This document shows, in pieces, positions 31,508-60,110 of a stretch of 64,000 bases of DNA (position 1 is the first letter of the stretch; each line of letters opens with the position of its first letter). Under the pieces are notes generated by a model. The model was not told the DNA's origin and searched no databases. It worked only from the letters and a program-made list of their open reading frames with translations. The position numbers were made by a program, and so were the translations under genes. The DNA is taken from the NCBI RefSeq assembly GCF_029814935.1, contig NZ_CP104582.1, positions 4,340,001 through 4,404,000 of the forward strand, given 5' to 3'. This stretch comes from Pseudomonas sp. GD03919. Its GTDB lineage: Bacteria; Pseudomonadota; Gammaproteobacteria; Pseudomonadales; Pseudomonadaceae.

Positions 31508-32494
31508 TCAATCGACGACTAGTTGAATGGTCGACTCAAGAGCACTTCTCATCCTAGAGTCGACCACCAAAGGCTCCTGCTCCAACCAAAGACCTTTGTC
31601 CACGAGATCATGCACCAGCTTGGGCGCATGACGAAGATCAAGCCCAGCAGGCCATGGCTTTTTCAACTTCCTAGGCTCAACGCACTCGGTCCAGAAGGAT
31701 GGAACGAACCAGCACAGATCCGACCGAAGCTCTCGTAGTTTCAGGAAGATTCGTACGCCGTTCGGGTCGAGATCACCAAAGTGAACGACAGGAACCTCGG
31801 GCTGCACCTGAGCGAGTAGATGCACAACAGTGGCTATGTCCCAGCCAGGGACATGAGCCAAAAGCCATCCGTCCAGCATCGGCAGGTCACGCCAAGCGCC
31901 AGAGTTTTCCACCAGCAAGACCGCTCGCAAGGGACCTTCCAAGGTGAGGCCATCCAGGAAGGCCCTCTCCGGGATCGGTGCTTCACCAAGAATACGGGCA
32001 AGCTTCCACAGATCCAGGACACCCTGCTCGGTCTGTGCCACCAATCCACGCGGTGGTCGCAAGCGTAACAATCCGTCGTGGGTCGCTTCGGTGCCGGCAA
32101 GCGCGGCTTGCCGGCGCGGCGTGAGTACCGCTTTGGAGTGGGGCGCGGTTAGCGCGGCTGCAGTCCGGCGATTGAGACGTCCTGGCAGCGCCGGAAGCCG
32201 CCCTGCGCGGCGCGCATCTTCCAAGCGAGTCCAACCATCAGGCGTGGGGGAAAACCCACCCGCTGTAAGTGCCGCCAGCGCTTCCTGCCAGTCCGGCCAT
32301 ACCCGCTCAAGCAGCGCAACGAGTTCAGTGCGGCGAGCCTCTACCAAGGCAATCTGATCACGCCGGCCGGTCGAGCGGATCCAGGATAGCTCTGCCAGAG
32401 TGTCATACGCTTTCACCTGTGAGGCGCGGCGCTTGAGCGTCCCCTGCACCAGCAACTCGAGCAGAGCGATGCGCTGCTGCGGCGTCTGCCACAT
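31508..32494 (-). CDS. jetD: Wadjet nuclease JetD (MukBEF-like system)
   Basis: A 328-residue protein with a Toprim/DUF2220-type nuclease domain in its C-terminal half: the catalytic glutamate in AVLLVENSGAW (E196) and the metal-binding DxD in VVHFGDLDPNGVRIF (D241, D243). The N-terminal half is a helical/winged part. In Wadjet, JetD cleaves circular DNA (plasmids) after the SMC complex has extruded it. The ATG at 32494 overlaps the jetC stop by one base (TAATG), fixing the operon order jetA-B-C-D. Confidence 0.88.
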   Translation of the reverse strand: MWQTPQQRIALLELLVQGTLKRRASQVKAYDTLAELSWIRSTGRRDQIALVEARRTELVALLERVWPDWQEALAALTAGGFSPTPDGWTRLEDARRAGRLPALPGRLNRRTAAALTAPHSKAVLTPRRQAALAGTEATHDGLLRLRPPRGLVAQTEQGVLDLWKLARILGEAPIPERAFLDGLTLEGPLRAVLLVENSGAWRDLPMLDGWLLAHVPGWDIATVVHLLAQVQPEVPVVHFGDLDPNGVRIFLKLRELRSDLCWFVPSFWTECVEPRKLKKPWPAGLDLRHAPKLVHDLVDKGLWLEQEPLVVDSRMRSALESTIQLVVD

Positions 32495-35400
32495 TAGCCT
32501 ACGCTCCTAGTGCGACGACCGAACACCAGAACTTCCTCGCGCCCCTCGGGCGTCACCTGGCGCACCAAGCGATAAGTCGTATTGCCTTCGGCACGTGCCA
32601 CTTCGGGGGCCGCGATCATCAACTGCAGATCCAGTGTCTGACACAAATCGAACAGGACGCCGAGATTGTCCGGCGACAGACGGTTCGCTTCGTCCAGGAA
32701 CAGGAAACGCAGCGAACCGTGAGCGCGCTTACCGCGCAGCAAGGTCGCATCGCGTTCCCACTCGGTGAGAACCACCATCATCAACGCAGCACCGACACCG
32801 ATCGCCTCGCCGGTCGACAAACGTGTCGGGTTGGCGACTTCCCACTCGGTGCCGGACTTGCGACGGATCTCCACCTGCAGATGCACGTATTCCCGATAAT
32901 CGAGCAGGCGCTGCCCTGCTGAGCGCCCACCGCCGTAGCGACGAAAGATTTCGTCGAGCGCCTCCTCGATCGGCATGTCCGCCTGGAACAGTAACTCCTG
33001 GGCCGCACCTTCACGCAGGGCGCGCAGGATCTGCTCCATACGCTCGACAGTCTGCATGCGCACACGGATGCCCTGAATGCTGCCGAAACTGACCTTTTCT
33101 AGATTCTTGGTCAAGCGAGTGACTTGGCCGCGCGCTTTGCGAATCTGTACGTCAATGCCGCGTGCTACATCTTCGCTAGCTCCACGCAGGTCGCTTTCCT
33201 GACGGGCGAGACGCTCTTCGAGATCAGACAGTTGGTCGCGCAGCCGGATGAGCGCTTCGCGCGGGTCATCGACCTCGGCCACCTGTGCCGGCAGGCGGCG
33301 GCGCAGCCAGTCGCGCACAGCCAGCCAAAGCGTCAGGATGGCATCAGCGAAGGCGGTATCGGAGGTGTCGCGCAGCTGTTGCAGTTCGGTCAGCAAGATC
33401 TCCCCGCCGCGCGCACTACTCAGGCGCTCCAGTAGGACACCCCGGCGTATTTTGGCTTCCTGGACAAAATTAATGTGGCCACGGATGTCGGCAAACTCTT
33501 CAGGAGTTCTGGTCAGCAACTCACCTACCAGACCATCGCGCATCGCCCAGTCAAGTAGGTCGTCCCAGCGCTTACGTGCAGGCTCGGCCTCACGGCGTTC
33601 GATAGCGAGTTTGTCGTCGGCAGACTGCAGATCCTGCTGGGCGTTCTGTAAGCCATGTTCCTGGTTGCCTTTGGCCGTCAGCAACACATCGCGCCGCGTC
33701 CCATGGGTACGCAGTTCTTGTTCCAACCGCATCACCTCGGCACCAGCCGCCAACAGGGCATCCTCGGTAGGAGCGGGTATGCCGAGGGAATTGAAATGTT
33801 CAGCGGCGGATTCATGTTCCTGTCTTGCATTGTCATACTGGCTTTGCGCTGCAAGAAAGCGCTTGCTCGCCTCGTCATACCGGGCTTCCGCCTGGGTGAC
33901 CTTGTTTTCGCTATCTTGAAGTAGCGTTTCGGCTTCGCTCAGTTGCTCTTGCAGCGCCGGAACCAGTTCCTGCGAGTCTTCGAGCCGACCTGGAGCTTCC
34001 TCCCAAGCCAAGGCTTCGGCGTTTTCGCACAGATATTCGAGTGCTTCGATCCCGGCATCGAGTTGCTGGCGCCGCGTCTCCAAAGCATTGGCGTGAAGCG
34101 TCAGGTTTTCTATATCCGTGTCCGACAACGGAGGCTGGCGCAAGTCACCAAGCCCATTCTCCACACGAAGGACATCTGCCTGGTTGGCGGCGATCCAGCT
34201 CCTGGCCTCGTCTGCTTGCGATGCTTTTTCGCTGAGTACTTGCACGCGCTCGCCATGATCGGGAGGATCGAGAAGCATCGCCTCGGCCAGCAACAAGCGC
34301 AGTCTGCCAATACGCGGCCGCAGTGCCTGTGCCACCGTAGCATTGCGATCAGCCGTTTCGCGCTGCTCCTCGATCTGTTCATCGACCAAGGTGATCGCCT
34401 GCTGCACCTCCGCGATGGCGCCCGCAGGATCGCCCGCCAGCCAGACCTCCAGCCCAGCAAGTAGAGCATCGCCATCGGCCTGCAGCCGCTCCAGCGTGCG
34501 CCGTGCACTCCTCATCGTATGCAGTTCGAGGGCTTTCTCTTCGGCCTGGGCCTGCAGGTCAGCCGCCCTTTTCTCGCGCGCCCGCCGCCCTATGCGCGGC
34601 TTGGTGGGAATACGGGATAAGCGGAGAGCGATACCGTCTTGGATAACAAGATCGCCTTCGCTGGCATTCGTGGTACCAGAGGCTTCTGCCAAGCGGTAGA
34701 GGTCGGCATCACGCGATACCAGTAGTACATCAGCTAGTTCCTCTGGCCGGTCCACAGCCGTACGAGCTGCTGCTGTGAGATCGTCGACGACTAGTGCCTG
34801 CACCAAGGCCCCGAGCCGGGCCTCCAGCACCGCAGCCTCCTCTATCGCCACTTCTTCGTAACTACCAGCCAGTAGTTCAGCACCGAGCCTGTCCTTGAGC
34901 TGCAACAACGCCGGCGAAAACGGGCCTCCGGCCGCCAGTAAATCGCGCGCCTCGCGGATCAGCCGCTCCTGCGCTTGCTGTGCCTGCTGTTCGGCCCGGC
35001 CGGCCTCGGCGTACTGTTTGCCTAAGCAAGCACGGGCTTCATCCAAGCTGCCCCGATTCTCTACTCGTGTACCGAGGTGTTCGGAAAAGCGCATAGCGCA
35101 TTCCGTCAGCTTCCGCCATTGCGGCTCTCGTGCCAGCAACTGTTGATATTGTTGCTGGAGCTCCTCGCGCCGACGCCGTAGCTCGGCAAGCTCGTCATTA
35201 GCCGTCCGTTGCGCCTGCTCGTGTACGGATCGTTCGGCTTCAGTATTGGTGAGCAAAGCGTTGACGACTTGCGTGGCGGGTGCCTCAGTCAAAACCACAC
35301 CCAACTCGCTCGCCTGTGCGCGTACCCGAGCCTGCCGAATCTGCAACTGTTGTGCTTCGGCCAGTTCACGTTCGATGCTGTGAATCTGATCAGCAAGTAC

Positions 35401-36915
35401 GCTCAGTTGCCGGTGAAGACGCAACGCTTCAGTAGCCGCATCGTACGCAGCGATGATTTCGACATCGTGCCCTGCGAGCCGCCGGACAGCCGCCATTAGC
35501 TGCGCATACCGCTCACGATGCTCCAGCGCATCGGACAGACGTGTCCTGGCTTCACGACGCTCCTGGTCGATGGAGTCGAGTGTGTTACGTGCCAATGCGA
35601 GGTGATCGACGAACTGCGCCGGGAGCAAGGGGGCAACCTGCAACGTCACCTCGGCTTCCCGCAGTCGTCGGGTTACTTGGCGATAGGCAGCGGCCCGGCG
35701 ATGCAGTTCCTCTATTCCCCGCTGTAGGTCGGCGAGCCCCTCAGCGGCACGTTTGTAATCCTCCTGGGCACGCTTGAGTTCCTCGCGGCTGCGGAGTCGC
35801 AACGTTTCAGCCTCGCTTCGCAGCCTGCCCGCTTCCTGTGCTTCGGGCTCGGTCTCCGCGAGACGGATAACACTCTGTTGCAGGGTGCACAATGCCGCCA
35901 AGGCATCCTTCAGCTTGGAGTGCCAATTGCGTGCGGATTCGAGCACTGGCTCCAGTTCGACCTTGCGAGCATCGAGCTCATCCAACTCGGTCAGAGTCGC
36001 GTCGAGTGCTTCACGCGCAATTTCCTGCGCATGGAAAGCCTGATCACGCGAGCTCTGAGCCTCGCTCACCCGGCGTGCGAGCTCGTCGGCACGTTCGCGA
36101 GTAGCGAGAAAGGCCGCGCCGAACATGGCCTGGCCGGCTTCGTAGATACTGCCGATTTCTTGCTCCAGACGACGCGACTCTTGCACTTCTACCCGGGTCC
36201 GCCGACAGGCATCCAGGTTTGATCGCATCCTCTGCAAGGTATCAGCGAGGCCACTTTGCTCCCTGAGCAGGAACGAGCGTAGCTCCGAAGTGAGCACCCT
36301 TGAGATGCCGCCGGTCATGCTGGTACGCAACATATCGTTAAACTTATTGCGCTCCTCGTCGGTACCAAGGCGCAGTGGCATGACTCCCTGGTCGAATAGC
36401 GCGGCGAAGTACTCCCGGGCGGAGGGATAAGATTGTAATCGCCCACCGAGCCGCGCCGCGTTGTCGCGCAACTCCTGCAACTCCGGCACAGACTCGACGC
36501 CCCCCTGTGCAACCAGCAGCAGATCTTGCAATCGGATCGCAGGGTCGAGGCCCCAGACAATAAATGGGGTAGGCTCCACGGAGGGTTCACCTTTGCGTTC
36601 CAGATGCACCCCAGCCAGCAGCCTCTGTGCACCTGCAAGGGCAAAATCTACCACCACGTAGGAAGGGCGTCCGGGATCACCTAGACGTCCCCAAATACCC
36701 TTGTCGCCGCCAGTCGCTCCAGTCTCGCCGAGATTGGTGAAGCGCAGGCGGGACATATCGGGCAACAGAGCGACATAGGCGGCAATCATCACCGTGGTCT
36801 TGCCGGCACCGTTGCTGCCTTCCAGCGCAGTGACATGCCGATCGAGTAGATAACGCTCGTAGAAGACACCTTTCCAATTGACCAGGGCTAAAGCATCGGC
36901 ACGTGTTCGACTCAT
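32494..36915 (-). CDS. jetC: Wadjet SMC-like ATPase JetC (MukB-like)
   Basis: A 1473-residue SMC-type ATPase, close to MukB (about 1486) in length. The N-terminus LVNWKGVFYERYLLDRHVTALEG aligns well with MukB's start; Walker A is GSNGAGKTT (residues 33-41). Long coiled coils fill the middle. Near the C-terminus are the ABC signature RLSTGEAIGVGAALM and Walker B LRFLFLDEANRLS. It drives loop extrusion that lets the complex measure and recognise small circular DNA. The start overlaps the jetB stop (ATGA). The MukB-like class distinguishes it from the second Wadjet at 53-60 kb. Confidence 0.9.
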   Translation of the reverse strand: MSRTRADALALVNWKGVFYERYLLDRHVTALEGSNGAGKTTVMIAAYVALLPDMSRLRFTNLGETGATGGDKGIWGRLGDPGRPSYVVVDFALAGAQRLLAGVHLERKGEPSVEPTPFIVWGLDPAIRLQDLLLVAQGGVESVPELQELRDNAARLGGRLQSYPSAREYFAALFDQGVMPLRLGTDEERNKFNDMLRTSMTGGISRVLTSELRSFLLREQSGLADTLQRMRSNLDACRRTRVEVQESRRLEQEIGSIYEAGQAMFGAAFLATRERADELARRVSEAQSSRDQAFHAQEIAREALDATLTELDELDARKVELEPVLESARNWHSKLKDALAALCTLQQSVIRLAETEPEAQEAGRLRSEAETLRLRSREELKRAQEDYKRAAEGLADLQRGIEELHRRAAAYRQVTRRLREAEVTLQVAPLLPAQFVDHLALARNTLDSIDQERREARTRLSDALEHRERYAQLMAAVRRLAGHDVEIIAAYDAATEALRLHRQLSVLADQIHSIERELAEAQQLQIRQARVRAQASELGVVLTEAPATQVVNALLTNTEAERSVHEQAQRTANDELAELRRRREELQQQYQQLLAREPQWRKLTECAMRFSEHLGTRVENRGSLDEARACLGKQYAEAGRAEQQAQQAQERLIREARDLLAAGGPFSPALLQLKDRLGAELLAGSYEEVAIEEAAVLEARLGALVQALVVDDLTAAARTAVDRPEELADVLLVSRDADLYRLAEASGTTNASEGDLVIQDGIALRLSRIPTKPRIGRRAREKRAADLQAQAEEKALELHTMRSARRTLERLQADGDALLAGLEVWLAGDPAGAIAEVQQAITLVDEQIEEQRETADRNATVAQALRPRIGRLRLLLAEAMLLDPPDHGERVQVLSEKASQADEARSWIAANQADVLRVENGLGDLRQPPLSDTDIENLTLHANALETRRQQLDAGIEALEYLCENAEALAWEEAPGRLEDSQELVPALQEQLSEAETLLQDSENKVTQAEARYDEASKRFLAAQSQYDNARQEHESAAEHFNSLGIPAPTEDALLAAGAEVMRLEQELRTHGTRRDVLLTAKGNQEHGLQNAQQDLQSADDKLAIERREAEPARKRWDDLLDWAMRDGLVGELLTRTPEEFADIRGHINFVQEAKIRRGVLLERLSSARGGEILLTELQQLRDTSDTAFADAILTLWLAVRDWLRRRLPAQVAEVDDPREALIRLRDQLSDLEERLARQESDLRGASEDVARGIDVQIRKARGQVTRLTKNLEKVSFGSIQGIRVRMQTVERMEQILRALREGAAQELLFQADMPIEEALDEIFRRYGGGRSAGQRLLDYREYVHLQVEIRRKSGTEWEVANPTRLSTGEAIGVGAALMMVVLTEWERDATLLRGKRAHGSLRFLFLDEANRLSPDNLGVLFDLCQTLDLQLMIAAPEVARAEGNTTYRLVRQVTPEGREEVLVFGRRTRSVG

Positions 36916-37592
36916 GACGACATTTCCTCCCCCTCCGCGTCGCCGCTATCGTCATCCATGTCGTTAGCATCACCCAGTAATACCTCTCCACGCGCAACCA
37001 GCCGCTCTAGGGCGTCGCTGGGATCTGTGAGCCCGCGAACTGGCTCGGCAAAGCGCATGAGTGCCGGACGCAGGCGCAATCTGGCCGCATCAACCACATC
37101 GATGAAACCCAGCTCAGCTAACTTACGCAGCGCCTCGTCCGCTTTCCCTCGCACAGTTTCAGCGGCAATGCGTTCGTCATACTTGCGTCTACGCGGATTT
37201 AGCGTACGCACCAGCACATCGGTGCCCAGTAATCCGGACAGCCGCTGCAATAGCGCTTCACGTGTCGCCATGCCGCCATGCTGCAAAGTCGCGGGATCGA
37301 GATACATCAGCGCCAGCACCTGCCCGATAAGCATTTCGCCGACGGATAGCTGACGTCGCCCCAGCCGCTCGCCGCTGGGCAGCAAATAGAAATAGCCATC
37401 GCTCTGCTGGATCAGCTCACAACCGAAACGCCGATAAAAAGGTTCGAGCAGCGCCTGTGCCTCCACCAGGTAATCATAGGGGCAGCCATCATCTCGACCG
37501 ATATGGCGTCCACGTCGCAGCATCAGATCCACCTCGGGGAATCGCTCGTCGACAATCACCTCTTCCAGAGAATCGAATACGGCATCGCTCAC
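36912..37592 (-). CDS. jetB: Wadjet subunit JetB (MukE-like)
   Basis: A 226-residue winged-helix protein closely resembling MukE: FPEVDLMLRRGRHIG matches MukE's FPALDSALRSGRHIG, and CELIQQSDGYFYLLPSG matches its VELIRAPEGFFYLRP. KITE-type subunits like this bridge the kleisin JetA and the SMC JetC. A GTG start at 37592 gives a 4-base overlap with jetA (GTGA); the longer frame to 37658 would run back into jetA. The tail is acidic, as in MukE. Confidence 0.88.
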   Translation of the reverse strand: MSDAVFDSLEEVIVDERFPEVDLMLRRGRHIGRDDGCPYDYLVEAQALLEPFYRRFGCELIQQSDGYFYLLPSGERLGRRQLSVGEMLIGQVLALMYLDPATLQHGGMATREALLQRLSGLLGTDVLVRTLNPRRRKYDERIAAETVRGKADEALRKLAELGFIDVVDAARLRLRPALMRFAEPVRGLTDPSDALERLVARGEVLLGDANDMDDDSGDAEGEEMSS

Positions 37593-38896
37593 TCCACTTT
37601 CCTCCGGCCCTGGACAGTCCATTCCTCGACTTCGAGCTGTTCGCCCACTTCTAGCCATAGCCGCTCGCGGCTTGAACGCAATCGGGCTAGCCTTGCAGCT
37701 GCGTCAGCGATGCGACCCGCAGCCACGTATTGGCTATCGTCGGTCAGCGTGGCGAGTACCTGCACCGTTAGCCCCGCCAAGGTATCTACGCCCTCGTCGA
37801 GCGCCCGACTCACCAACACTTCGATATCTGCCAGCGCATTTTCAGCTTCCACCCAGGCTGGTTCGGCCTCACGATCAGTCTTTGGCCTGGCCACCACCGG
37901 ACGCTCGACGCGTGCTTCAAGTGTACGTAGCAGGCAGATAGAGCCTGCATGCGCAGCTAGTAGATGGAAAGGCCTGTTTCCCCACTCCGCAATCTGATCG
38001 CGCAAGCGCTGGCTCAGCGCCCGATCAGGATCCAGTCTGACCACGTCGCGCAGGTAGCGGTGTACATACTGGTAGTATTCGGACCATGCCTTTTGGCGTG
38101 CACCGCCCCAGGCTCCGATCCGGTCTACATGTTCGATGACCCGCTGTGCGGCTCCCTCGGCTTCGACATTTTCTGCTGAAACGGCCAGCGCCTGGATGTC
38201 CTGGAGCAACGCAACGAAATGGTGTGTGTCTCGCAGCAGGATTTCATTGAGCTCGCGCAATGTGTGGGTCGTTGCGTCGAGCAGGCTCTGGCATCGATCG
38301 ATTGCGCTAAACCAGTCGTTCGACAGCAGGCTAGCGATTTCCGCCTGGATTTCCTCCTGCTGGGCATCAAGCCCCCGCTGCCGACGTTCGATACCCGCCA
38401 CCATGTCACCGACCGTGATCCTCAGGGGGGCGACCACGCGCTGACGCCAATCCTCATCGTTATGGGCCTTCCTGGCTGTCGCCAGGATGTCGGCAAGTTG
38501 AGCGCGCAAGGTACCGGTCAGTAGGCTGAGGCTTTCCCGAGTCAGGGCCTCGTCCGCCAGAAAGTATTCGATAACCGCAGCAGCAAGTCGTGTCAGCGCA
38601 TACTCGCCCGCCCGAACGATGCCGGCGCCATCAACTCGGGCCAGCATGCGCTGCTCGCGTAATCGTTGAATGGCGTGCGTCGCGCGCTTGCGCGGATTTT
38701 CGGCAGCGGGTTCGACGACATCGCAGACCTGTTCAAACAGGTCGATCAGCAGATCTTCCTCGAACGACGCAAGCCCAGCCTTGTCCGCTCGCAGGTACAG
38801 ACCTGCGAGAAAGCAGACATCCGCTGTTTTCAGGTCAAGATTGACCTGATCCCGTACCAGCGAGGCGATAAGGCGATTCGGATCGGATGCTGTCAT
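37589..38896 (-). CDS. jetA: Wadjet kleisin-like subunit JetA (MukF-like)
   Basis: A 435-residue protein with clear MukF resemblance over its length: DWFSAIDRCQSLLDATTHTL versus [20 protein letters not shown], and DRIGAWGGARQKAWSEYYQYV versus [21 protein letters not shown]. It has an N-terminal winged-helix and helical middle. It links the JetC heads as the kleisin. The start is uncertain: ATG 38896 is used, but a TTG at 38941 would add 15 residues. The gene lies 57 bases after the RloC-like ATPase gene and probably shares its transcript. Confidence 0.85.
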   Translation of the reverse strand: MTASDPNRLIASLVRDQVNLDLKTADVCFLAGLYLRADKAGLASFEEDLLIDLFEQVCDVVEPAAENPRKRATHAIQRLREQRMLARVDGAGIVRAGEYALTRLAAAVIEYFLADEALTRESLSLLTGTLRAQLADILATARKAHNDEDWRQRVVAPLRITVGDMVAGIERRQRGLDAQQEEIQAEIASLLSNDWFSAIDRCQSLLDATTHTLRELNEILLRDTHHFVALLQDIQALAVSAENVEAEGAAQRVIEHVDRIGAWGGARQKAWSEYYQYVHRYLRDVVRLDPDRALSQRLRDQIAEWGNRPFHLLAAHAGSICLLRTLEARVERPVVARPKTDREAEPAWVEAENALADIEVLVSRALDEGVDTLAGLTVQVLATLTDDSQYVAAGRIADAAARLARLRSSRERLWLEVGEQLEVEEWTVQGRRKVE

Positions 38897-38953
38897 AAGC
38901 GCTGAGTAGGCTTCTCTGCTACGCAGTATGAATGTATCCAAGCCTCATATTGT

Positions 38954-41233
38954 TCAGGCATGGACGGCCCCCTGTGCATCGGCCTGCTGTTCCTGAGTTT
39001 TGGCCGCGATCTCAGAATCGTCTGAGTATGCTTCTCGCATCATCATCTTGTAGTGAGCCAAATGCCCGGACTTGACGAAGATCGCCTTGAAGATATTCAG
39101 GTAGCTTTCCACCATTGCATCGTCGACAGCGACATATAGGTCATCGTGTGCGAAGTGAGAACCATCGTTGACCCATGAAAAAAGCGATCGGCATATGACC
39201 TTCTCACGCCCCTCGAACAGGTTGCAGATGTCGTCGGTATCGGATCCACCCAGGATCTTGAAGTAGTTTTCAAGAATGCGCCTGAGGGTGTTCTGGATTG
39301 AAAGGTTGGATCGGTCGGCCCGTCGTACCTCCGCCCACAGCAGTTCGTATGAGGTGACTATCGGGTTGCTTGTGTGGGCCTCTACTCTTGAAGAGTGATG
39401 AGATTTTCGGACGACCCAGAAGGTTTCCTCGCTGCGCATCGCATTTCTATCAGTGCGCCGGGCGTTGAAGGTCACTTCCTTGTGGAAGTAGACGTTATGG
39501 GTCAGTACGAAAACCTGTTTGATGTGACCGGTTCCTTGGCGCACCTCATCGAACAGCGCCTTGATCAGGCTGCTAACGATGAAGAGGATGTCGCTATCCA
39601 GACTCGACACAGGATCGTCGAAGACCACTATACGGTCAGTCGTCACGCCGCTTTCCGAATCGCTGCCTTTGAGCAGATGGTAAAAATAGAGGAAGGTGAC
39701 GAAGGTACGTTCGCCTTCGCTCAAGGTTTCCTTCGCATCCATACCATCCGGTCGCCGCAGCACATAGGCGGTACCGCTATCTGCCTTGGCTAGGGAGAAA
39801 CCATGAAAACCGAACGAGGCTAGCAAGGTATTTATTGCATCGATGGTCGGCTGGATGCTGGTGGTCGCACGCTCCAGCTCAGCTATTTCTTTCTCCACCT
39901 GACGCCGGTCTGCTTCCGCCGCTTCGATCTTTCCGTTCAAGGCAGTGATCGCGCCCACCAACCCTCGCTTCTTCGTCGAGCAATCCTGCAATGCGGGCGC
40001 CAGCTCGATGGCGACGATGTGTTTCCACACCTGGCTTGCCAATTGCTGCTTTTCTTTGCCCAGATTAGCTACCGTAGCGTTGTGTGACTCGATCTGCTCG
40101 TTGGCAAGCGCCAGTGCCTGGGAGATCGCGCCCAGAGCGTCAGCCAGAGGTTCCAGTGCAATGAGCTGGCTTGGCTCGCGTTGCTTATCGGCAAGATGCT
40201 GACGATTGAGGGCAATCCGAGAAGCCAGCAGCGCCACTTCTGTCTTCAGTGTTTCCGCATCGAGGAATCGGGAAGGCGCATTAAGGATCTCGGACAATTG
40301 CGCCAAAAGGTGATCGGCCGCCGCGGCATAGGTCTTAGCCAGTTCATCAATGGCACGACTGTCATCCAGAAACGTTTCGTCGAAATAGGCCTCCAGACTG
40401 GCCGCGAACGAGGCTTCTGTGGCTTGCTGGCAGAAAGGGCAGACTCCTGTCGCCTCATCGAAGTAAGCCCGGCCCTGCCGCACCCAATCGCTGTTGCCCA
40501 GCGCCTTGATCATTGCCGCGATATCGACATCTTCCCGGCCCAGAACGCGCTTGCTCAGGATCGGATTCGATTCGTGGGACAACAGCGCATCGAACGAAGG
40601 CAATACGACGTGGGGCTCCAACATAGGTGAGGGGCCAAAAATGGTCTTGGCTTTCTCCTGGAGATCGGCCAACGAAACCAATGCTGCAGAATTCCCAGCA
40701 TGCTCCTGCAGCACACGGACCTTGAAGTTCTCGGCATTGTTGCGTACGCCCTGGAATGCCAAAGCGAATGCACTATCGTGCTTTTTTTTCTGGGCCCAGC
40801 ATGTCTCCTGAAACCAAGCCTCGAGATCGGCGAGTTCTTTGCGTTTTCCTCCCAGACCATCCAGCCCTTCTAGAGTCTCCCTCAGACTGCTGATGCGTCC
40901 ACTACAGCTACCGGACTCCTGTTTGAGTGCCGCGATCTTGGCAACATTCTCGACGTTCTTTTCACCGAGGGTGAAGATGCCTTTGAGCTCTGCGGAAGGG
41001 CCGAAATTACGTGCAACGAAGTCGCGGTTGTAGACCATAGCCTGAAGGGGCACGCCGCTCTTCCAGCCAACATGGCAACTCGGATAACGAGTGGGGTTGT
41101 CGATCACCCTGGAAATTGTGGTTTTGCCACACCCATTGGCACCGTAGATAAAGTTGAACTTCGTCAGCCCATCAAGCGCTTGTACCTCTTGTCCATACGA
41201 AGCCACCCCCACTATCCGTATTGACTCAATCAT
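38954..41233 (-). CDS. RloC/PrrC-like ATPase, candidate anticodon nuclease
   Basis: A 759-residue AAA_13-type ABC ATPase: Walker A GANGCGKTT (residues 31-39), a zinc-hook-like CPFC (C265, C268) between coiled coils, signature LSEGER (504-509), Walker B RIVVFDDP and H-loop LTHN (577-580). RloC/PrrC anticodon nucleases use an R-x3-E...H triad; here RRILE (R651, E655) and H693 in NDGSHFAHDD fit that pattern. Known relatives cleave tRNA when phages disable restriction enzymes or damage DNA. The type I restriction operon lies 20 kb away, while jetA is the next gene. ATG 41233 has AGAGAGG four bases upstream. tRNA cleavage is inferred. Confidence 0.7.
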   Translation of the reverse strand: MIESIRIVGVASYGQEVQALDGLTKFNFIYGANGCGKTTISRVIDNPTRYPSCHVGWKSGVPLQAMVYNRDFVARNFGPSAELKGIFTLGEKNVENVAKIAALKQESGSCSGRISSLRETLEGLDGLGGKRKELADLEAWFQETCWAQKKKHDSAFALAFQGVRNNAENFKVRVLQEHAGNSAALVSLADLQEKAKTIFGPSPMLEPHVVLPSFDALLSHESNPILSKRVLGREDVDIAAMIKALGNSDWVRQGRAYFDEATGVCPFCQQATEASFAASLEAYFDETFLDDSRAIDELAKTYAAAADHLLAQLSEILNAPSRFLDAETLKTEVALLASRIALNRQHLADKQREPSQLIALEPLADALGAISQALALANEQIESHNATVANLGKEKQQLASQVWKHIVAIELAPALQDCSTKKRGLVGAITALNGKIEAAEADRRQVEKEIAELERATTSIQPTIDAINTLLASFGFHGFSLAKADSGTAYVLRRPDGMDAKETLSEGERTFVTFLYFYHLLKGSDSESGVTTDRIVVFDDPVSSLDSDILFIVSSLIKALFDEVRQGTGHIKQVFVLTHNVYFHKEVTFNARRTDRNAMRSEETFWVVRKSHHSSRVEAHTSNPIVTSYELLWAEVRRADRSNLSIQNTLRRILENYFKILGGSDTDDICNLFEGREKVICRSLFSWVNDGSHFAHDDLYVAVDDAMVESYLNIFKAIFVKSGHLAHYKMMMREAYSDDSEIAAKTQEQQADAQGAVHA

Positions 41234-42006
41234 TCGCCTCTCTCCCTAGGCAATCGGTGCCAATCTCTGGCCGGCTATTCGTTATATAGCTTGCAATGTC
41301 ATTCGAATAGAGTGAGTGAAAGACTAGACCAGTCGAGGTCTAGTGATCTATTCCGGAGGCGCACGCTGGATATGGGCGATTTGGCGGAGAGTTCTGTCGT
41401 CACGAGGGTGTATTTGGCTAGTTCGGCGGAGGTGCCCCAGTGAGCGCTTGTGGCGGGTCAGTGGTTTTTGCAGGACTGCCACCGACATTTTGCGGTAGAC
41501 GAGTGCAGCCACGGTGGCTACGGAGCGAAGTCTCGATGACCTATCAATGAACTGCCGGTGGATTAGCTGAATGTCCTCAACCTGTTTCGGCTCGACCCCA
41601 CTGGCAAGAAGGGAGGTATCAAGACCCGCCGCCTGGTTGCATCCACCTCCGATACCTATCGCGCTGCACTTCTCGGGCTTGGCCAGCCTTCAAGCGATTG
41701 CCCTGCGTCGGTGCCCTGGAAGATTGCAGTTTCTGCGGGCTGCACGGCACTGCGATGCGAACAACGCAACGCTTGCGAGGATCGCCTCACGGCATTCGTC
41801 GTCGCTCGACAGCGAGAAGTGGCGTTTCGTGATGCGCTGATGGATACGCGGTGCGCACGGCGCACCCTGCGGGCCCGGCGAGGCTTGAGCGGCTGCATGC
41901 ATTTCGCACCAGGCTGGCGCGTGACAGCGATTGTGCGACCTGTTGTGGTGCGGGCTGGGCGGCTGGGCGTCGCCCCACCGCCTGCCCAGGGCCGTTGTTG
42001 GCGATC

Positions 42007-42022: not shown

Positions 42023-42101
42023 TGGGCAAGCGCATCCACTGCAAGCCGGGCTCTGCCTCGTAAGCCTTGTGACCATTCGCGCCCCCGGGCGCCGGGTAAT
42101 G

Positions 42102-42142: not shown

Positions 42143-42162
42143 GTTTCTGGGAACACGGAAAA

Positions 42163-48373: not shown

Positions 48374-48396
48374 CAGAACATCTACAGAGAACCGCC

Positions 48397-50133: not shown

Positions 50134-50350
50134 GCGCTGCGCCGGCAGGAGTGAGGGGTGCCAGCCCGCGCCTCCGTATCCAATACCAGACGCTGGATAG
50201 CTTCCATGAGAGTGGTAACGCTAACGACGAGGGGGTCTCCCTTCACAAAAGCCTGTGTTTTGATCGTATGAACGAGAACGGTTCTCTTCATGCGATTGCC
50301 CTGGTAAAGGGGGGCCTGACGAAGCCGGCTCGCGAATCAGCGAAACCGGA

Positions 50351-51533: not shown

Positions 51534-51537
51534 CTAG

Positions 51538-52868: not shown

Positions 52869-52872
52869 CTAG

Positions 52873-53388: not shown

Positions 53389-54564
53389 TTACAGTGGATC
53401 ACCCAGCAGTTGCAGGCTCTTTCGAGCCCACTGCTCGATAGCGCGCTCAACTTGTTCCTTTGGCAGGTACTCCTGCTCAAGACGTCCTCGTTCTTGCACC
53501 AGCAGATACCGATAGAAGTCCGCTTCGTCAGCCAGCAAATCAGGTGGGGCCGAATCCAGAGCTTTGGTCGGCTCGACGACTGCGCTCACCGGTGAGTGCT
53601 GTTCAAACAGCTCTTGCTTCATTAATAGTGCTTCGACTGCTGGTTGATGGAGTCTCGCTCGCGCCAGCATCAGCAAGCCCCAGGTATCCATATCGCCCCA
53701 GTATGCGATCTGTTTCCCGACCAGGTGCGCGGACGCTAGCCACTGCAAATCGAGTCCTGAGCCCAGCACAGCCAGGGTGTCCGGTAAGCTCTCAGGCAGC
53801 AAGTGAATGCATTGCTCATTTTCCACCACGAGCAATCGCGAACCGGGAAGTGGGGTTTCGGCCAGTTCCGCAGTGGTGAGCCTGAGCCGCTTAAAGGGCA
53901 GCAGCTCAGGCTGAAGGGGAACGACTAGAACCCAATGACTGCTTTCTTCAAAGGCATCCAGAAAAGTCGTCAGGCCTTGCTCGGACGCCGCGCCTTCGAA
54001 GCGCTCGTCGAGGAGCCAGGTCAGCAAGCTGGCGTTACGCTCGAAAAACTTGGTGTCTACGCCGTGCTCGGCAAGCAGGCGCAGCGGACGGCCTCGGGCA
54101 CAGCCTGGCGACAACCGGGTGGCGAGTCGCGCCGTGGCGACGACTTCTTCAGACGGCTTCGTCAACCACAAGCTCCGTTGTGCCACCAGCAGCGCATGAA
54201 AGGCACTGTCTACCTGCTCGACCAGATACTCGAGTTGAGCATATTCCTGGCTGACCCTTGGATCATCGCTCGCGGCAATCCATTCGGAGGGGCTACGCAA
54301 GTGCCAACGCATCGGCAAGGAAATGGGGGACAGCCCTGCTCGGTAGCTGACGGGCTCCCAGTCGACTTTACCAACGTTCACGCTCCGCCAGTTCTCCACA
54401 TGCCGGAGTACCGCCTGGATGTTGTCAGTAAATAGACGTGCCGAAGGCTTGCCGATGTTGAGGCTTTGCGGCCAGCTAGCGGGATTGAGCAAACGTTCCA
54501 AGCGTACGCTGGAGCGCTGCCATTGTTTGGCCAGGCTGCGACTGATGTCAGTGGGCGACTTCAT
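53389..54564 (-). CDS. jetD: Second Wadjet: nuclease JetD (DUF3322/DUF2220)
   Basis: A 391-residue protein with an N-terminal DUF3322-type domain (SLAKQWQRSSVRLERLLNPA, PISLPMRWHLRSPSEW) and a C-terminal Toprim/DUF2220 domain: SRLLVVENEQCIHL (E248) and QIAYWGDMDTWGLLML (D291, D293). Cleaves closed circular plasmid DNA within the JetABCD complex. ATG 54564 (MKSPTDIS) overlaps the end of jetC by 17 bases; the ATG at 54597 lies farther inside jetC and is less likely. Its sequence is only distantly like the JetD at 31508. Confidence 0.9.
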   Translation of the reverse strand: MKSPTDISRSLAKQWQRSSVRLERLLNPASWPQSLNIGKPSARLFTDNIQAVLRHVENWRSVNVGKVDWEPVSYRAGLSPISLPMRWHLRSPSEWIAASDDPRVSQEYAQLEYLVEQVDSAFHALLVAQRSLWLTKPSEEVVATARLATRLSPGCARGRPLRLLAEHGVDTKFFERNASLLTWLLDERFEGAASEQGLTTFLDAFEESSHWVLVVPLQPELLPFKRLRLTTAELAETPLPGSRLLVVENEQCIHLLPESLPDTLAVLGSGLDLQWLASAHLVGKQIAYWGDMDTWGLLMLARARLHQPAVEALLMKQELFEQHSPVSAVVEPTKALDSAPPDLLADEADFYRYLLVQERGRLEQEYLPKEQVERAIEQWARKSLQLLGDPL

Positions 54565-57500
54565 GCATGGCCTTGATGCGCTGTTGATGATGCTCATCCA
54601 AAGCTTCCCAGCTCAGGGAAACCAGACTGGATTCCACGCCGCGCCGATGAACGACGACTGCCGAACGCGTATGGTGGCGCAACAGGCGCATTTCCTTGTT
54701 GGGCGTGATGAAGACAGCATGCAGGCCGAATTCCCTCAGCGCTGCGATGATCCGACCGGCAACCGCATGGGAGCTGCGCGAGAACGCCTCGTCGAGCACG
54801 ATGGTGCCGAACAACGGCCGGCTGCTGCCGTCGGGACAGAGCGCATAGCTGAGGGAAGCGGTCAGCACATAGGAGGCGATGATCTCTTTCTCGCCACCAC
54901 TACCCCCCTGAGAACCTGTTCGGGTTTCGATGACACTCCTGCTTTCGCGATCGATCACCGAGACCGCGAACTCCAGGCGGAAGCGCGGATCCAGCAGCGC
55001 CTTGGCTCCCTGATTCCTGCTGTGCTCGCAAGCATCCTTGAGCAGGCCAACGAGCGCCTGCAATGCCTTGTAGTGGCTCTCGCCTTCATCATCGATGAAA
55101 CGCGCCGAGTTCAGTTGACGCTGAGCCTGTTGCAAGGTGCGAAGGCTTGCATGAATGACCTTTTTCGCGACCAAGCGCAGATAGCGCCCGGGCTGAAAGT
55201 CAACACGCTGCATCGTACTGTTCAGGTCATCCAAACGCTCCTCGATCACCGAGACTTCATGGTCGATATAGCTAAGTAGCTGGGTGACGCCGTCATCCGA
55301 AGAACGATTGAGGTATTCCAGAAAGCGCTTGAGCTTCTCGGGCAGGGCTTCCTCGGTCAGCACGCGTAGACGCTCCAGATACTTGGGTACGTCCACCAGC
55401 TCTCGCCCAACTTCTGCAAGCGCCCCGGTGTCTACCTTCAGGGAGTCGGACATCCGTTTGGCAAGCTCGGATTTCTGATCGCCTAGTTTTTCGCCGAGTG
55501 TTTTGAGCTGCCCTTGCAGCTCATGCGTATGCTTGCGCTCCAGCTCGACAATATCGCCGAGGTCATCAGCACTCAGGGTCGGGAAGTGCGCTAGCGCCAA
55601 CTCACGTTGCGTATCGCTCAGCCCCTTTTCGGCGCCGCGATAAGCCTTACGGGTAGCGGATGCGGCCTGCTCGAACTGAATTTTCAACTGACCGCACTGC
55701 TCGATAAGTTGTTGCCTCTGTCGATCCAGAGAGTCCAGCAATGCCTCAGCTTCATCCAGCTCAGCCTTGATAAGGGCGAGGTCAGAGTCGGGACGTGTCA
55801 GGGTGTCCAGCTGAGCACGCAGCGACTCCAGCTGACGCTCGGCGCCCGGCAGATCAATCTCCTCGAACTGCAGTTCTTCGACGCGCTGCAGCAGCGAAGC
55901 TTGATCCTCCAACTTGCGGACATCGCCCTGGGCAGCATCCAAGGCCAGCTTGGCAGGCGCGAGCTGTTCATTGACCTCGCGAATTTGTTCAGTCAGGAAG
56001 GCCAGACGGTCGAGGTTATCGAAGCCGGTCAGCCAGTCTTCATCGAGGCGCTTCTGGTCCTGCTTGTCGAAGAAGCGTTCTTTACCCGACATCAGCCCCT
56101 GAGCCGTCATGGCGTGCGGGGTATGACGCAATTGCTCCGTGCTCTCCACGCAATGTCGGTCGTTGTCCGCCAGTAGCGCCTTTACCGCTTCGCGGTACGG
56201 ATGCTCCTTGAAGGTCAGCTTGCGGGTATAACCATCGTCGAAGAACACAGGGCGCGACGACGGTTCCTTGACCTCCAACAAGCGCACATGCAAGCGGTTG
56301 TGTCGTTGGTTCACCCAACGCAGTGCAGCCTCGGACGCACCCTGCGGCACCAGGATACGCAGGCGGTGGCTGCCGATTGCCCGCTCGATGGCCCCCCGCC
56401 AGGCCAGCTCCTCGGGCTTGACCTGCACCAGCTCGGCAACGAAAGGCAGGGCCGATTCATCGACGCCAAGCATCTGCGCCAGCTCCCCTCGAAAAGCATG
56501 AAAATGCCCAGGCAGGTTCGAGCCTGGCCGTCGTTCGACCTCGGCACGCTCCTGCTGCAAGCTCTGCAGGCGGCCATCGAGTTCTTTCTGGACAATGCCT
56601 ATATCGAACGACTTTTGCCGTGCCTCAGTAATTTGCTCGGCCAGTACTTCCAGGCGTGCCGTGATCTGCTGCTGATTTTCCTCGAGCGCAGCGGCTGATA
56701 ACTCCTCCACGAGTCCTAGCCCTTTGGCCAAACGCTGGTACTGCTCGGCTTTCAGGCGCCGTTTATCAAACTCCCGAACCCAATCCGCGATGCGCGCGCG
56801 CAATAGATCTATCTCTGCACCGCCTACTCGCAGGTAGCGCTGACGATGCTGATCGACCACGCCCTTCTGGATATCAAACTGTCCCCTGCATTGCTCCTGA
56901 TTCAGTTCGGCCTGTTTTTGCGCCTTCTCAAGCCTGTTGGTTTCGGCCAACCACAGGCGATAACCCTGCTCGGCGAACCAGACCGGAAGAATGCCTTCGA
57001 GCGCCTGCTTGTCCTGCAACTGGGCTTGCAAGACTCGGTAACGCTCCCAGCCATCGGCGACCGGCAGCAGTGAGCGCTGCTGCTTTCTAGCGGTTTCCAG
57101 TTCGCGGTGAATGTCCGTTAGATCATCGAAACTAGTAGCGACCTCGGCAGCCCGCCCGAAAGCGGAGCGGTCATCGAGCACCAACTCGCGAAAGATCTCA
57201 TCAATGCTATTGAGCTGTTTCAGGCCGGCAGCGCGGTTGAGCAAGGTGAAGGCGTTTTCACCGACTTCGAAGTAATCCCTGAGCCTGGCCAGGAACGCTT
57301 TCTTGCTGGGATAAGGCCAGATACCCGTCCCATCCTTCTCCATCTGACGCAACGCCCGCATGCCGCCTGCGTGATGTTGGCTGAGCCAATGCTCCAGCGT
57401 CTGCTCGGGGGACTCGCTTAACAGCCACAGTTTTTTCAGATCGGACGCCGAAGAGCTGGTGCCCTCGAACCAGAGCACAGCGCCCAGTCGCACCTGCGCA

Positions 57501-57853
57501 CCGTCACGCTCGAGCGTGGCGGCAATGGCGGTGACCGTCTTTCCCTGGCGCGCGATATGAGATTGCTCTACACCTCCGTCTCCAGGGCCGGTAACCCCGC
57601 GCACATAGGACACCAGATCACGGTCGCTTTCATGCCCACCTGTGGAAGCCAGATTGTAGCGCGGGTTGGCGCACAGCAAGGTCATCAGCGCATCCACCAG
57701 CGTCGTTTTACCGCTACCCGTTGGGCCGATCACGGCGGTGCCTGAGGGATCGATCTCGGCACGGTGATAGCCCTGAAAGCCGCCCCAGTTATAGAGTTCG
57801 ATGCTGCTGAGAATGAAGGTCTCGCTGTCACGCCAGAGCAGTGCTTGCTTCAC
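54548..57853 (-). CDS. jetC: Second Wadjet: SMC-like ATPase JetC
   Basis: A 1101-residue SMC-type ATPase with Walker A GPTGSGKTT (residues 43-51), long coiled coils, signature GSGGEKEIIASYVL and Walker B FGTIVLDEAFSRSS. It begins FILSSIELYNWGGFQGYHRA, the form seen in Wadjet JetC of the DUF3375/DUF4194 class, and is about 370 residues shorter than the MukB-like JetC at 32494. A GTG start at 57853 overlaps the jetB stop (GTGA). Extrudes DNA loops to find small circles. Confidence 0.9.
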   Translation of the reverse strand: MKQALLWRDSETFILSSIELYNWGGFQGYHRAEIDPSGTAVIGPTGSGKTTLVDALMTLLCANPRYNLASTGGHESDRDLVSYVRGVTGPGDGGVEQSHIARQGKTVTAIAATLERDGAQVRLGAVLWFEGTSSSASDLKKLWLLSESPEQTLEHWLSQHHAGGMRALRQMEKDGTGIWPYPSKKAFLARLRDYFEVGENAFTLLNRAAGLKQLNSIDEIFRELVLDDRSAFGRAAEVATSFDDLTDIHRELETARKQQRSLLPVADGWERYRVLQAQLQDKQALEGILPVWFAEQGYRLWLAETNRLEKAQKQAELNQEQCRGQFDIQKGVVDQHRQRYLRVGGAEIDLLRARIADWVREFDKRRLKAEQYQRLAKGLGLVEELSAAALEENQQQITARLEVLAEQITEARQKSFDIGIVQKELDGRLQSLQQERAEVERRPGSNLPGHFHAFRGELAQMLGVDESALPFVAELVQVKPEELAWRGAIERAIGSHRLRILVPQGASEAALRWVNQRHNRLHVRLLEVKEPSSRPVFFDDGYTRKLTFKEHPYREAVKALLADNDRHCVESTEQLRHTPHAMTAQGLMSGKERFFDKQDQKRLDEDWLTGFDNLDRLAFLTEQIREVNEQLAPAKLALDAAQGDVRKLEDQASLLQRVEELQFEEIDLPGAERQLESLRAQLDTLTRPDSDLALIKAELDEAEALLDSLDRQRQQLIEQCGQLKIQFEQAASATRKAYRGAEKGLSDTQRELALAHFPTLSADDLGDIVELERKHTHELQGQLKTLGEKLGDQKSELAKRMSDSLKVDTGALAEVGRELVDVPKYLERLRVLTEEALPEKLKRFLEYLNRSSDDGVTQLLSYIDHEVSVIEERLDDLNSTMQRVDFQPGRYLRLVAKKVIHASLRTLQQAQRQLNSARFIDDEGESHYKALQALVGLLKDACEHSRNQGAKALLDPRFRLEFAVSVIDRESRSVIETRTGSQGGSGGEKEIIASYVLTASLSYALCPDGSSRPLFGTIVLDEAFSRSSHAVAGRIIAALREFGLHAVFITPNKEMRLLRHHTRSAVVVHRRGVESSLVSLSWEALDEHHQQRIKAMHEVAH

Positions 57854-58599
57854 GCCTCGTCCTCCTCAGCAGCGGCAGCCGGGGTAGTCGCGCCCTCCAC
57901 CTGCTCGCGCAGCCAAACCACCAGTGCCTGCAGGTTCTCCGGGTTGGCCAAGTGGGTAATGATGGGGCGGATGATGACGCGGTCATGGGCGTCCAGAGCC
58001 GACACCAAACCATGCCCCTTGAGCTGATCCAGCAGCGTGATGACGCGATTGCGCTCCTTCGCCTCACTGCCCAGCTCGCCCAGGTAAACCTGCAATTGCG
58101 GAATCAGCTCATCAACAGCTACCAGTGCCTGAGTGGCGCCCGTACCGCTTTCCTGTTCGTAGGCGATGAAATGCTGGCGCAGAATGGCGATCAGCAGGGA
58201 CTGCTCCAGGTTCAGCCTTTGCCTGCGCACAAGGGGGTGCGACCAGTCATCCTGCTCGGCCCCCTCGCCCTGACGAACGGTGACGAACACCAGCCCGCGA
58301 ACCTCGTCGACCCCCATGGCCAGGTCGAGGGCTTCCAGGATTGTGTCGACCGCCTCGATATTGGCAAGCGCCGAGCGATACAGATTGGGCTTGTGACTTT
58401 CTTCCAGCAGCCCGTACTTGAGCATTTCCTGTACGGCCTCACGTACCCGTTGCGGCGTCCGGCGCTCATCGACCTGAACAGCGGCGCTCATAAGAGACTG
58501 TTCATCATCCATGCCGTCATCCAACGCTATGGGCTCCACCGTCAGCTCCGTTTCGTCGGTGCCAGAGGCACCTGCAATTCGATCGAAGATCCCTGCCAT
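57850..58599 (-). CDS. jetB: Second Wadjet: JetB (DUF4194)
   Basis: A 249-residue DUF4194-type winged-helix protein: VREAVQEMLKYGLLEESHKP, YRSALANIEAVDTILEALDLAMGVDEVRG, and HPLVRRQRLNLEQSLLIAIL with an acidic end (AAAEEDEA). It joins the kleisin-like JetA to JetC. ATG 58599 (MAGIFDRI) has GGGAG eight bases upstream; the TTG at 58614 is rejected. It starts 2 bases after jetA ends. Confidence 0.88.
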   Translation of the reverse strand: MAGIFDRIAGASGTDETELTVEPIALDDGMDDEQSLMSAAVQVDERRTPQRVREAVQEMLKYGLLEESHKPNLYRSALANIEAVDTILEALDLAMGVDEVRGLVFVTVRQGEGAEQDDWSHPLVRRQRLNLEQSLLIAILRQHFIAYEQESGTGATQALVAVDELIPQLQVYLGELGSEAKERNRVITLLDQLKGHGLVSALDAHDRVIIRPIITHLANPENLQALVVWLREQVEGATTPAAAAEEDEA

Positions 58600-58601
58600 G
58601 C

Positions 58602-60110
58602 TCACAACTCCCAATCGATGTCTTTGAGTGCCTCGTGGTCGAGTCCGACATAAGGCAGATTGAAGCGCCAGCGTTGCTCATCCTCGTCCACCAGCTCCAC
58701 GAGCTGACGTTCCTCTGTCAGCACCTCGATACCTGCCTCGCGCGCCATCGCCAGCCAGAGCGCAAAGGTTTCCAGGTCGTGAACAGGTGGAAGCAAAGAC
58801 GCAAGCTCCACGAGACTCACGGGGCGACCCTGCTCCACCAGCACAGCCAGGGTGTCATGAATCAGCGCTTCACGATCCAGCCCGTCGAAGGCATCCCAGA
58901 AGTCATCATCAATCTGCTCCAACCCCGCAGGCTTCAAACTCAGATCCAGCTCGCCCGTATCATCGTCATCCAGAGTCTTGAAGCGCAGACGCTCGATTGC
59001 TGGGACACCGGTAATGGCTACACCAACTGGTGGTAAACATGCAGGCTTACGGCGTTCTGACTGGCGTTGCCAGTCGACGCTGAGCGCTAGATTGAAGAAG
59101 TCGTTGAGTAACTGTCCGACGCGATGATGCTCGGCGGCCAGCCCCGTCTTCATGAAGCCACGAACATCGCGCTCGCTTCGGGCGCGCGCTTGGAGCACAG
59201 CCTGCGACTCCCGAACCAGGCGTAACGCCAGCCAACGTAGCTCACGTTGCTGGGGACGATTCAGCGCCTTTGGAACCGCTGGATGACGAAGGATGGTGCG
59301 CAAGCGCTCACGCATGGCCTCCAGCTCAGCGGACTGCCTCAGTTGCTGCTGGAAGCTTTCAAAGACACGCCCTTCCGGCGTGTTGAGTAGGGCATCTTGC
59401 CCGTCCAACAACCGATCGACGATTTCTCCACGGTGAGACTGCTCGCTGATGATGGAGTGTCGAAGGGCGCGATCCGCCTCGCGCCAAGAGTCTTCAACTC
59501 GTCGAAAGTCCGCGCGTAGGCTGGTGGCCAGGCTATACACCTCGCGTATGCCCTCTATCGCCTGCGCTTCATCCAGCACGATGACGTGGCCAGCTTCTAC
59601 CTGCGCTAGCTCGTGCTCCAAATCCTGGATTCGGCGGCGCAGGCTGGCAATACGGCCAGTTGGGCTGGGGTTCAGCCCCGTTTCCAGGTTTTCGATCTCG
59701 CGCTGAACCACCGAAAGGCGAGATGCCGTGGAGGTCATGATCCGACTATCCAACGAATCGACGAACTGGATGGCGGACTCCAACGCGTCGGTTGCATAGA
59801 TACGGCCCTCTCGCTCTACGACGAGGCGCCGCTTGATCCATTCACGAAGTTCACGACCTGCTTGGAGATGCGTTGCATCTGGGTCGATTTCGTAAAGCTC
59901 CTGGCTGGCATAAGCAGCCAGCATTTCGGACAGCGCTTGCAGCGCATCCTCCATGGGGATCCCATCATGCGCCCGCTCGAACAGAGTGCGCAGGCAGCCC
60001 AATACGAGCGGAGCACGCCGCGAGGCAAGCAAAAGCCACGCGGGGTGCTGGCTGCGGGCAGATACATAGCGTTCTGAACGCTGTTGCGCGCTTTCTTCCA
60101 TGACGGCCAC
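58602..60110 (-). CDS. jetA: Second Wadjet: JetA (DUF3375)
   Basis: A 502-residue DUF3375-type protein, the kleisin-like subunit: SARSQHPAWLLLASRRAPLVL, THLQAGRELREWIKRRLVVE, GRIYATDALESAIQFVDSLD and a coiled-coil around residues 130-180. The C-terminal winged-helix region is LEQIDDDFWDAFDGLDREAL. The start may be GTG 60110 or ATG 60101 (three residues later). First gene of the operon jetABCD, whose promoter should lie between 60111 and the hairpin at 60224. Confidence 0.9.
   Translation of the reverse strand: MAVMEESAQQRSERYVSARSQHPAWLLLASRRAPLVLGCLRTLFERAHDGIPMEDALQALSEMLAAYASQELYEIDPDATHLQAGRELREWIKRRLVVEREGRIYATDALESAIQFVDSLDSRIMTSTASRLSVVQREIENLETGLNPSPTGRIASLRRRIQDLEHELAQVEAGHVIVLDEAQAIEGIREVYSLATSLRADFRRVEDSWREADRALRHSIISEQSHRGEIVDRLLDGQDALLNTPEGRVFESFQQQLRQSAELEAMRERLRTILRHPAVPKALNRPQQRELRWLALRLVRESQAVLQARARSERDVRGFMKTGLAAEHHRVGQLLNDFFNLALSVDWQRQSERRKPACLPPVGVAITGVPAIERLRFKTLDDDDTGELDLSLKPAGLEQIDDDFWDAFDGLDREALIHDTLAVLVEQGRPVSLVELASLLPPVHDLETFALWLAMAREAGIEVLTEERQLVELVDEDEQRWRFNLPYVGLDHEALKDIDWEL

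Follow-up and report, generated by a model that had tools for sequence, protein, structure and literature searches.

The 64,000-nucleotide stretch of Pseudomonas sp. GD03919 analysed here (the window; bases 4340001-4404000 of a genome that forms a single contig of 4.66 Mb) carries two complete jetABCD-type operons, and the first of them, operon 1, is by its gene content a MukFEB set directly followed by a JetD/MksG-type nuclease. We consider operon 1 to be probably a defence form of MukBEF, in which a loop-extruding MukB-MukE-MukF motor would be joined to an operon-encoded Toprim nuclease. Operon 2 is, judging from its domains, an ordinary, textbook Wadjet type I system. Each of the eight genes forms an open, unbroken frame at its position in Table 1. 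As a previous reading of the letters alone (the sequence-only reading) had described, the two operons share one orientation, here the minus strand, and lie 14.5 kb apart (gap 38896-53389).

Motor and nuclease of operon 1

The SMC subunit of operon 1 matched both Pfam MukB (265 bits) and MukB_hinge (137 bits) above their cut-offs, and it scored 1129.5 against the NCBI equivalog model MukB (NF003422), whose cut-off is 699. Among solved structures, PDB MukB aligned with it over residues 4-1468 (E 7.5e-105). It carries both Walker patterns, A and B, and the signature LSTGE. The KITE subunit, whose GTG start was inferred from a 4-base overlap with mukF, gave similar Pfam scores for MksE (115.5 bits) and MukE (113.8 bits, over the Pfam cut-off), with an NCBIfam MukE match below the cut-off. 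For the kleisin, Pfam KicB and MukF_M were above and MukF_C below the cut-off, and NCBIfam MukF gave 381.5 bits, under its cut-off of 407. Operon 1 thus holds the genes of MukBEF, that is, MukB head and hinge, MukE and MukF, and the claim that it is MukBEF-like with a JetC of 1473 residues was borne out by Pfam and NCBIfam. It departs from MukBEF in the jetD directly downstream, as MukBEF is stated to be without the MksG/JetD nuclease (PMC7617805).

PADLOC, which requires all four models of one type, did not type operon 1 as Wadjet I, II or III. The SMC reached at most 34.1 bits for any Jet model (JetC1 34.1, JetC2 31.7) and the JetD at most 25.8 bits, and no JetA or JetB model matched in operon 1. 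On the same library E. coli K-12 MukB scored 57.0 for JetC1 and 33.1 for JetC2, both above the SMC of operon 1. Hence, to that tool the SMC of operon 1 looks Muk.

The JetD of operon 1 matched the Toprim domain of Pfam JetD_C, and DUF3322 was not matched in it. Its fold is predicted: the model had a predicted local distance difference test (pLDDT) score of 96, and its best structure matches in Foldseek were MksG, JetD and topoisomerase VI-A. Residues E196, N197, D241, D243, E305 and E307 are kept in 27 of 27 JetD-bearing loci, the window included, and the JetDs of the two operons in the window show the motifs LLVEN/LVVEN, FGDLD/WGDMD and LEQE. In 66 aligned JetDs, none of the columns that are invariant or nearly so holds a tyrosine. 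The modelled CAP-Toprim fold, the E and DxD metal residues and the lack of a conserved CAP tyrosine point to a JetD/MksG-type enzyme. With SMC, kleisin, KITE and a putative Toprim nuclease whose active-site residues are intact, operon 1 falls in the broad Wadjet group. Calling it Wadjet, as the sequence-only reading did, is right about its own nuclease but understates the case, because operon 1 is not typed I to III and is rather a MukBEF with a JetD nuclease.

Relatives and spread of the MukBEF-JetD family

The closest named relatives of operon 1 belong to Pseudomonadaceae. The MukB of Stutzerimonas stutzeri TS44 is 95% identical as protein and its DNA 97.2%, and that of Pseudomonas oryzihabitans, among the matches listed, stands at 92%. 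Homology searches at E 0.001 or better returned 613 relatives of JetD and 871 of MukB; the best 120 of each were viewed, with JetD-linked and other MukBs pooled. Many of the named relatives among the matches listed are labelled chromosome partition protein MukB. Because NF003422 accepts the JetD-linked SMC far above its cut-off, a likely defence gene would be given that name.

A genome scan yielded 70 loci, 47 of them with a near-complete MukB. JetD follows MukB in 26 of the 47 and does not in 20, and one contig was too short to tell. Of the other 23 loci, excluded as fragments or for failing the length filter, L019 and L069 carry JetD, and L043 and L064 do not. No JetD profile match was found anywhere in the 21 JetD-less loci checked, namely the 20 and L111. 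JetD-bearing records include Pseudomonas, Sorangium, Hyphomonadaceae, Bryobacterales, Thermoanaerobaculia and Binatia, as well as a Burkholderia plasmid; operon 1 is, by these matches, a member of a family found in several phyla. Its spread is patchy: of 398 genomes in the genus of the window, 2 have the MukB hinge, the host's own among them. MukB and JetD distances were closely correlated over 27 loci (r 0.955, 0 of 5000 permutations), which is what joint inheritance of the pair would produce.

The tree of MukB heads plus hinge held 63 MukBs (28 with JetD, 33 without, 2 unknown) and is unrooted. On this tree the JetD label changes at least four times, and a single clean split between JetD-bearing rows and the rest was rejected by the approximately unbiased (AU) test on a quick tree (p 1.9e-6). 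The JetD-less rows are the gamma-proteobacterial MukBs, a Syntrophobacter-like group beside JetD-bearing Chromatiaceae, most Myxococcota rows of one subtree, and L074; that subtree also includes 19 JetD-bearing rows. JetC1 and MksB heads, taken as outgroup, were too distant and partly misaligned to root the tree, so that gain and loss of JetD are not settled by the trees. The JetD-bearing L073 stood beside gamma-proteobacterial MukBs in the outgroup tree (95 in the Shimodaira-Hasegawa-like approximate likelihood ratio test, SH-aLRT) and on the opposite side of the midpoint root in the other tree. As JetD is present in other Wadjets too, we infer as the simplest reading that it was lost several times; the interleaved labels are compatible with its loss in chromosomal MukBEF.

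An open reading frame (ORF) of 363-385 residues behind MukB in the Syntrophobacter-like loci was considered as a divergent JetD and rejected, for it gave no JetD profile match even at E 1000; by eye it is glycosyltransferase-like, and Pfam gave no match. Several single loci were also noted. Myxococcales bacterium 68-20 has a JetD-bearing and a JetD-less MukBEF in one genome bin (L008 and L034). JetD lies over two frames at L015:14281-15426 of a metagenome-assembled genome, by decay or sequencing error. In Aeromonas caviae (NZ_AP026896, L123:15865-16890), a stand-alone JetD-like gene, with 35.3 bits for Pfam JetD_C, sits about 7 kb downstream of a mukFEB operon, past an IS605-type transposase, and its best match among 369 genomes of the class is in a complete MukFEB-JetD operon (L140).

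Operon 2, the island and the relation of the two operons

Operon 2 holds, contiguously, a DUF3375 JetA, a DUF4194 JetB, a DUF3584/MukB-like JetC and a JetD with DUF3322 and DUF2220, and its placement in the DUF3375/DUF4194 class with a 1101-residue JetC was upheld by Pfam and by PADLOC typing. Walker A and Walker B patterns were found in its SMC; the signature GGSGGE was recognised by eye, the search pattern being unmatched. The IFDR motif of type I JetB is reported to touch JetD (PMC10586767). As the sequence-only reading had it, each operon has its own Toprim-type JetD and ATPase motifs, and with motifs intact and frames open neither is a decayed copy.

Table 1. Positions of the two operons and associated features in the window.
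Feature	Position	Strand	Evidence
HTH (helix-turn-helix, HTH_3) gene, convergent with jetD, within shared module	31200..31484	+	Pfam HTH_3 53 bits
jetD of operon 1 (predicted CAP + Toprim nuclease), 328 residues	31508..32494	-	
mukB/jetC of operon 1 (SMC ATPase, MukB head + MukB hinge), 1473 residues	32494..36915	-	Pfam, NCBIfam, PDB matches
mukE/jetB of operon 1 (KITE subunit), 226 residues from GTG start	36912..37592	-	Pfam MksE, MukE
mukF/jetA of operon 1 (kleisin), 435 residues	37589..38896	-	Pfam KicB, MukF_M; NCBIfam MukF
AAA_13 ATPase, PADLOC candidate PDC-S06	38954..41233	-	962.6 bits; in 97.2% module; non-core
Module common with S. stutzeri TS44, in another setting	31176..41573	.	one blastn match, 10,404 columns, 97.2% identity to L005
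jetD of operon 2, type I	53389..54597	-	PADLOC JetD1 656.5 bits; DUF3322 + JetD_C
jetC of operon 2, type I SMC ATPase, 1101 residues	54548..57853	-	PADLOC JetC1 1593.5 bits
jetB of operon 2, type I; N-terminal IFDR motif (by eye)	57850..58614	-	PADLOC JetB1 408.4 bits; DUF4194
jetA of operon 2, type I kleisin	58602..60110	-	PADLOC JetA1 928.7 bits; DUF3375 371 bits

A defence island lies between the ribosomal RNA genes at the right end of the window (5S and part of 23S) and a gene at 1273-4467 whose match to Phage_integrase is borderline. It holds type I restriction-modification, Druantia III, PDC-S06 with operon 1, a GC-rich stretch, operon 2, IS66 and an IS1595-type transposase; transposase genes also occur in the GC-rich stretch between the operons. 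The type I restriction set (10244-19241) has, between hsdS and hsdR, an extra half-length HsdS of 225 residues, a DUF6161/AbiZ-like gene and a RhuM gene. Druantia type III looks complete (20168-29730; DruH 2083 bits, DruE 2408 bits). The GC-rich block (41931-50501, up to 70%) is cargo between the two defence operons, with ANTAR, ATP-binding cassette (ABC) transporter and FmdA/AmdA amidase genes. Operon 1 is not the only condensin of the host, whose genome also encodes Smc (1193 bits) and an MksBEF-like operon; JetD was not matched in the 13 kb fetched around the latter.

The two operons had been called unrelated. They are indeed of different classes: PADLOC, run as the subtype check, gave type I for operon 2 and none of its Wadjet types for operon 1, so that they are not one family and a recent duplication of one operon is rejected. 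No significant match was found between the JetD of operon 1 and JetD1, or between MukF and JetA1. However, the word is too strong, as both are SMC complexes of the Wadjet group with detectable similarity of the heads (35% over 68 residues between MukB-like and JetC1, E 4e-5).

The two operons look, from comparison with related genomes, separately acquired, because each is missing from a genome that holds the other. The module shared with S. stutzeri TS44 comprises the HTH gene, jetD, mukB, mukE, mukF and AAA_13; the flanking DNA differs on both sides, and DUF3375 was not found in the draft genome of that strain. In a draft genome of the same species as the host, operon 2 and the IS66 beside it match as a single block of 9.5 kb (window 52906-62397, 94.8%), and the adjoining 63422-63784 matches too. 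Counting matches over 200 bases, the remainder of that 38.1 kb contig matches the window at 56-883 only (77.6%), and the MukB hinge was not found in this draft genome.

To the sequence-only reading, carrying both operons suggested different preferences for circle size or topology, or protection against plasmid anti-defence factors. The present data give no support to selection of the pair for complementary targets, as co-occurrence is not clearly enriched. DUF3375, marking Wadjet I, is present in 5 of the 28 genomes holding the MukBEF-JetD family, compared with 34 of 299 genomes drawn from the phylum of the window at the curated cut-off (36 at E 0.001; host's genome counted), which gives p 0.35 in Fisher's test. 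In the genus it is present in 8 of 149 genomes with the host's own; against the other 148 (7 with), p is 0.025, but the 28 span a wider range of hosts, which confounds this comparison. Enrichment per genome is thus not shown against the phylum and is nominal only against the genus. Judged from the sizes of the contigs, none of the five co-occurring genomes has Wadjet I on the same contig as the relative of operon 1. Two systems in one island could be what ordinary island growth gives. A differing substrate preference of the two operons is still a good hypothesis, since MukBEF hinges are reported to be without the channel by which Wadjet I bypasses tethered obstacles (PMC12647877).

Proposed function and comparison with known systems

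By analogy with Wadjet I, operon 1 most likely reels in small circular DNA with its MukBEF motor and then cuts it. The motor would load on DNA and draw in circular molecules small enough for complete extrusion; the remnant would be handed to a dimeric JetD for a double-strand cut, and the chromosome would be spared, being too large for extrusion to finish. Operon 2 would achieve the same end by means of another motor. What the sequences show is the gene content, the identity of the domains, active-site residues that are intact, the predicted fold of JetD, matched JetD-MukB divergence, a larger number of defence-type neighbours beside JetD-bearing loci, patchy spread and the lack of each operon in a genome with the other; DNA extrusion, activation of JetD by MukBEF, restriction of plasmids and any division of labour are inferred. 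Druantia III and type I restriction-modification in the same island provide a supporting defence setting.

The neighbourhoods of the relatives were compared as well. Flank genes of JetD-bearing loci (116 scanned of 138 picked) matched 139 PADLOC families at 1e-15, with Lamassu LmuA/B/C, PDC-S02 and PDC-S06 among the 25 listed, and those of JetD-less loci outside the gamma group (107 of 111; gamma loci were left out) matched 23, mainly PD-T4-6, with C3a189, mad6, MkoA and DpdE. In these flanks, defence-type neighbours are more numerous beside JetD-bearing than beside JetD-less loci. Locus pairs sharing a flank gene numbered 37 of 91 in the gamma group, 12 of 351 among JetD-bearing loci, 4 of 10 in the Syntrophobacter-like group and 7 of 105 among JetD-less Myxococcota. 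The conserved place expected of housekeeping genes was not seen for the last of these, so that a housekeeping label for JetD-less Myxococcota MukBEF is premature.

Several points weigh against a defensive role for operon 1. The neighbourhood counts are of matched families or models, not loci; they come from heuristic ORF picks and are inflated by the several families of one system. Few flank genes are shared among JetD-bearing loci, although few are shared among JetD-less Myxococcota loci as well. The JetD of operon 1 had one good match among 72,556 plasmid records. The IFDR docking motif was not seen by eye in its MukE, and recruitment of JetD would therefore have to differ; similarly, no N-terminal MukE motif separating JetD-bearing from JetD-less loci was seen by eye. 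Finally, the MukBEF core could still fold chromosomes.

Three other explanations were weighed. It is rather unlikely that operon 1 acts mainly against phage or other circular intermediates instead of plasmids, with the co-travelling AAA_13 gene as a part. AAA_13 and the HTH gene do travel with operon 1 in the 97.2% module, and PDC-S06 is a candidate defence gene of PADLOC; but among the fetched loci AAA_13 lies upstream in L005 and L050 only, which speaks against a core role. For the same reason AAA_13 was rejected as a fifth core subunit, though some loci had no upstream DNA.

E. coli MukB recruits topoisomerase IV. By this parallel, operon 1 would be an accessory chromosome condensin or decatenase, whose MukBEF recruits the topoisomerase VI-like JetD to cut catenated or damaged chromosomal DNA. 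We judge this unlikely, as the tyrosine-free conserved columns of the JetDs make topoisomerase chemistry improbable, the genus carries the family in so few genomes, defence-type neighbours are more numerous beside JetD-bearing loci, and the host possesses Smc and an MksBEF-like operon of its own. There is little chance that operon 1 is a divergent type II or III Wadjet missed by the models: the Pfam JetD_C match and the faint JetC1 and JetC2 scores favour it, and a tendency to long coiled coils and channel-less hinges is described for types II and III as well (PMC12647877), but E. coli K-12 MukB scores higher on those models, and the kleisin and KITE match MukF and MukE and no Jet model.

By its gene content operon 1 joins two fields, with a chromosome-folding motor of the E. 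coli type and a nuclease of a plasmid-cutting type in one operon. Descent of MukBEF from a defence system was proposed, as speculation, in a review (PMC10586767); a MukBEF with a nuclease makes such an origin testable and is a useful test case. It also suggests that a database entry named 'MukB' is a defence gene where jetD comes directly after it, and that a finder based on the known three types, here PADLOC, leaves the family untyped. MukFEB cases have been reported by PADLOC as Wadjet 'other' (PMC9252829). In the titles and abstract starts of the open-access papers searched, MukBEF with its own JetD as a class, or a 'Wadjet type IV', was not found, although Data S1 of PMC7617805 may already list the clade; the available parts of PMC10512200 and PMC12287153 do not touch the combination. 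We tentatively raise the possibility of MukBEF-JetD as a fourth architecture of Wadjet, which in Pseudomonadota, Myxococcota, Acidobacteriota and other groups goes by the name 'chromosome partition protein MukB'. It would also be the nuclease-armed stock of chromosomal MukBEF, with JetD lost more than once. A host with type I as well would then have two motors that differ in their hinges, of which only one could bypass tethered obstacles, and would be covered against plasmids that escape one of them.

Three Wadjet types are recognised, and MukBEF and types II and III are described as lacking the hinge channel (PMC12647877). Types II and III resemble operon 1 in pairing an SMC motor with a JetD-type nuclease (PMC12647877, PADLOC), whereas PADLOC's models of these two types miss operon 1 save for the 31.7 bits of its SMC against a JetC2 model. 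With Wadjet type I (JetABCD/MksBEFG), operon 1 has in common the four-gene logic of SMC, kleisin, KITE and Toprim nuclease and the predicted fold and catalytic residues of JetD; it differs in having MukF, MukE and MukB, a MukB hinge and an SMC of 1473 residues, and in lacking a DUF3322 match in JetD and IFDR in the KITE. It is like MukBEF of E. coli and relatives in the head, hinge and full length of MukB, in MukE and MukF and in the gene order F-E-B. It differs from that MukBEF by the jetD immediately downstream, by its rarity in the genus and by its place in a defence island of a host already equipped with Smc and an MksBEF-like operon.
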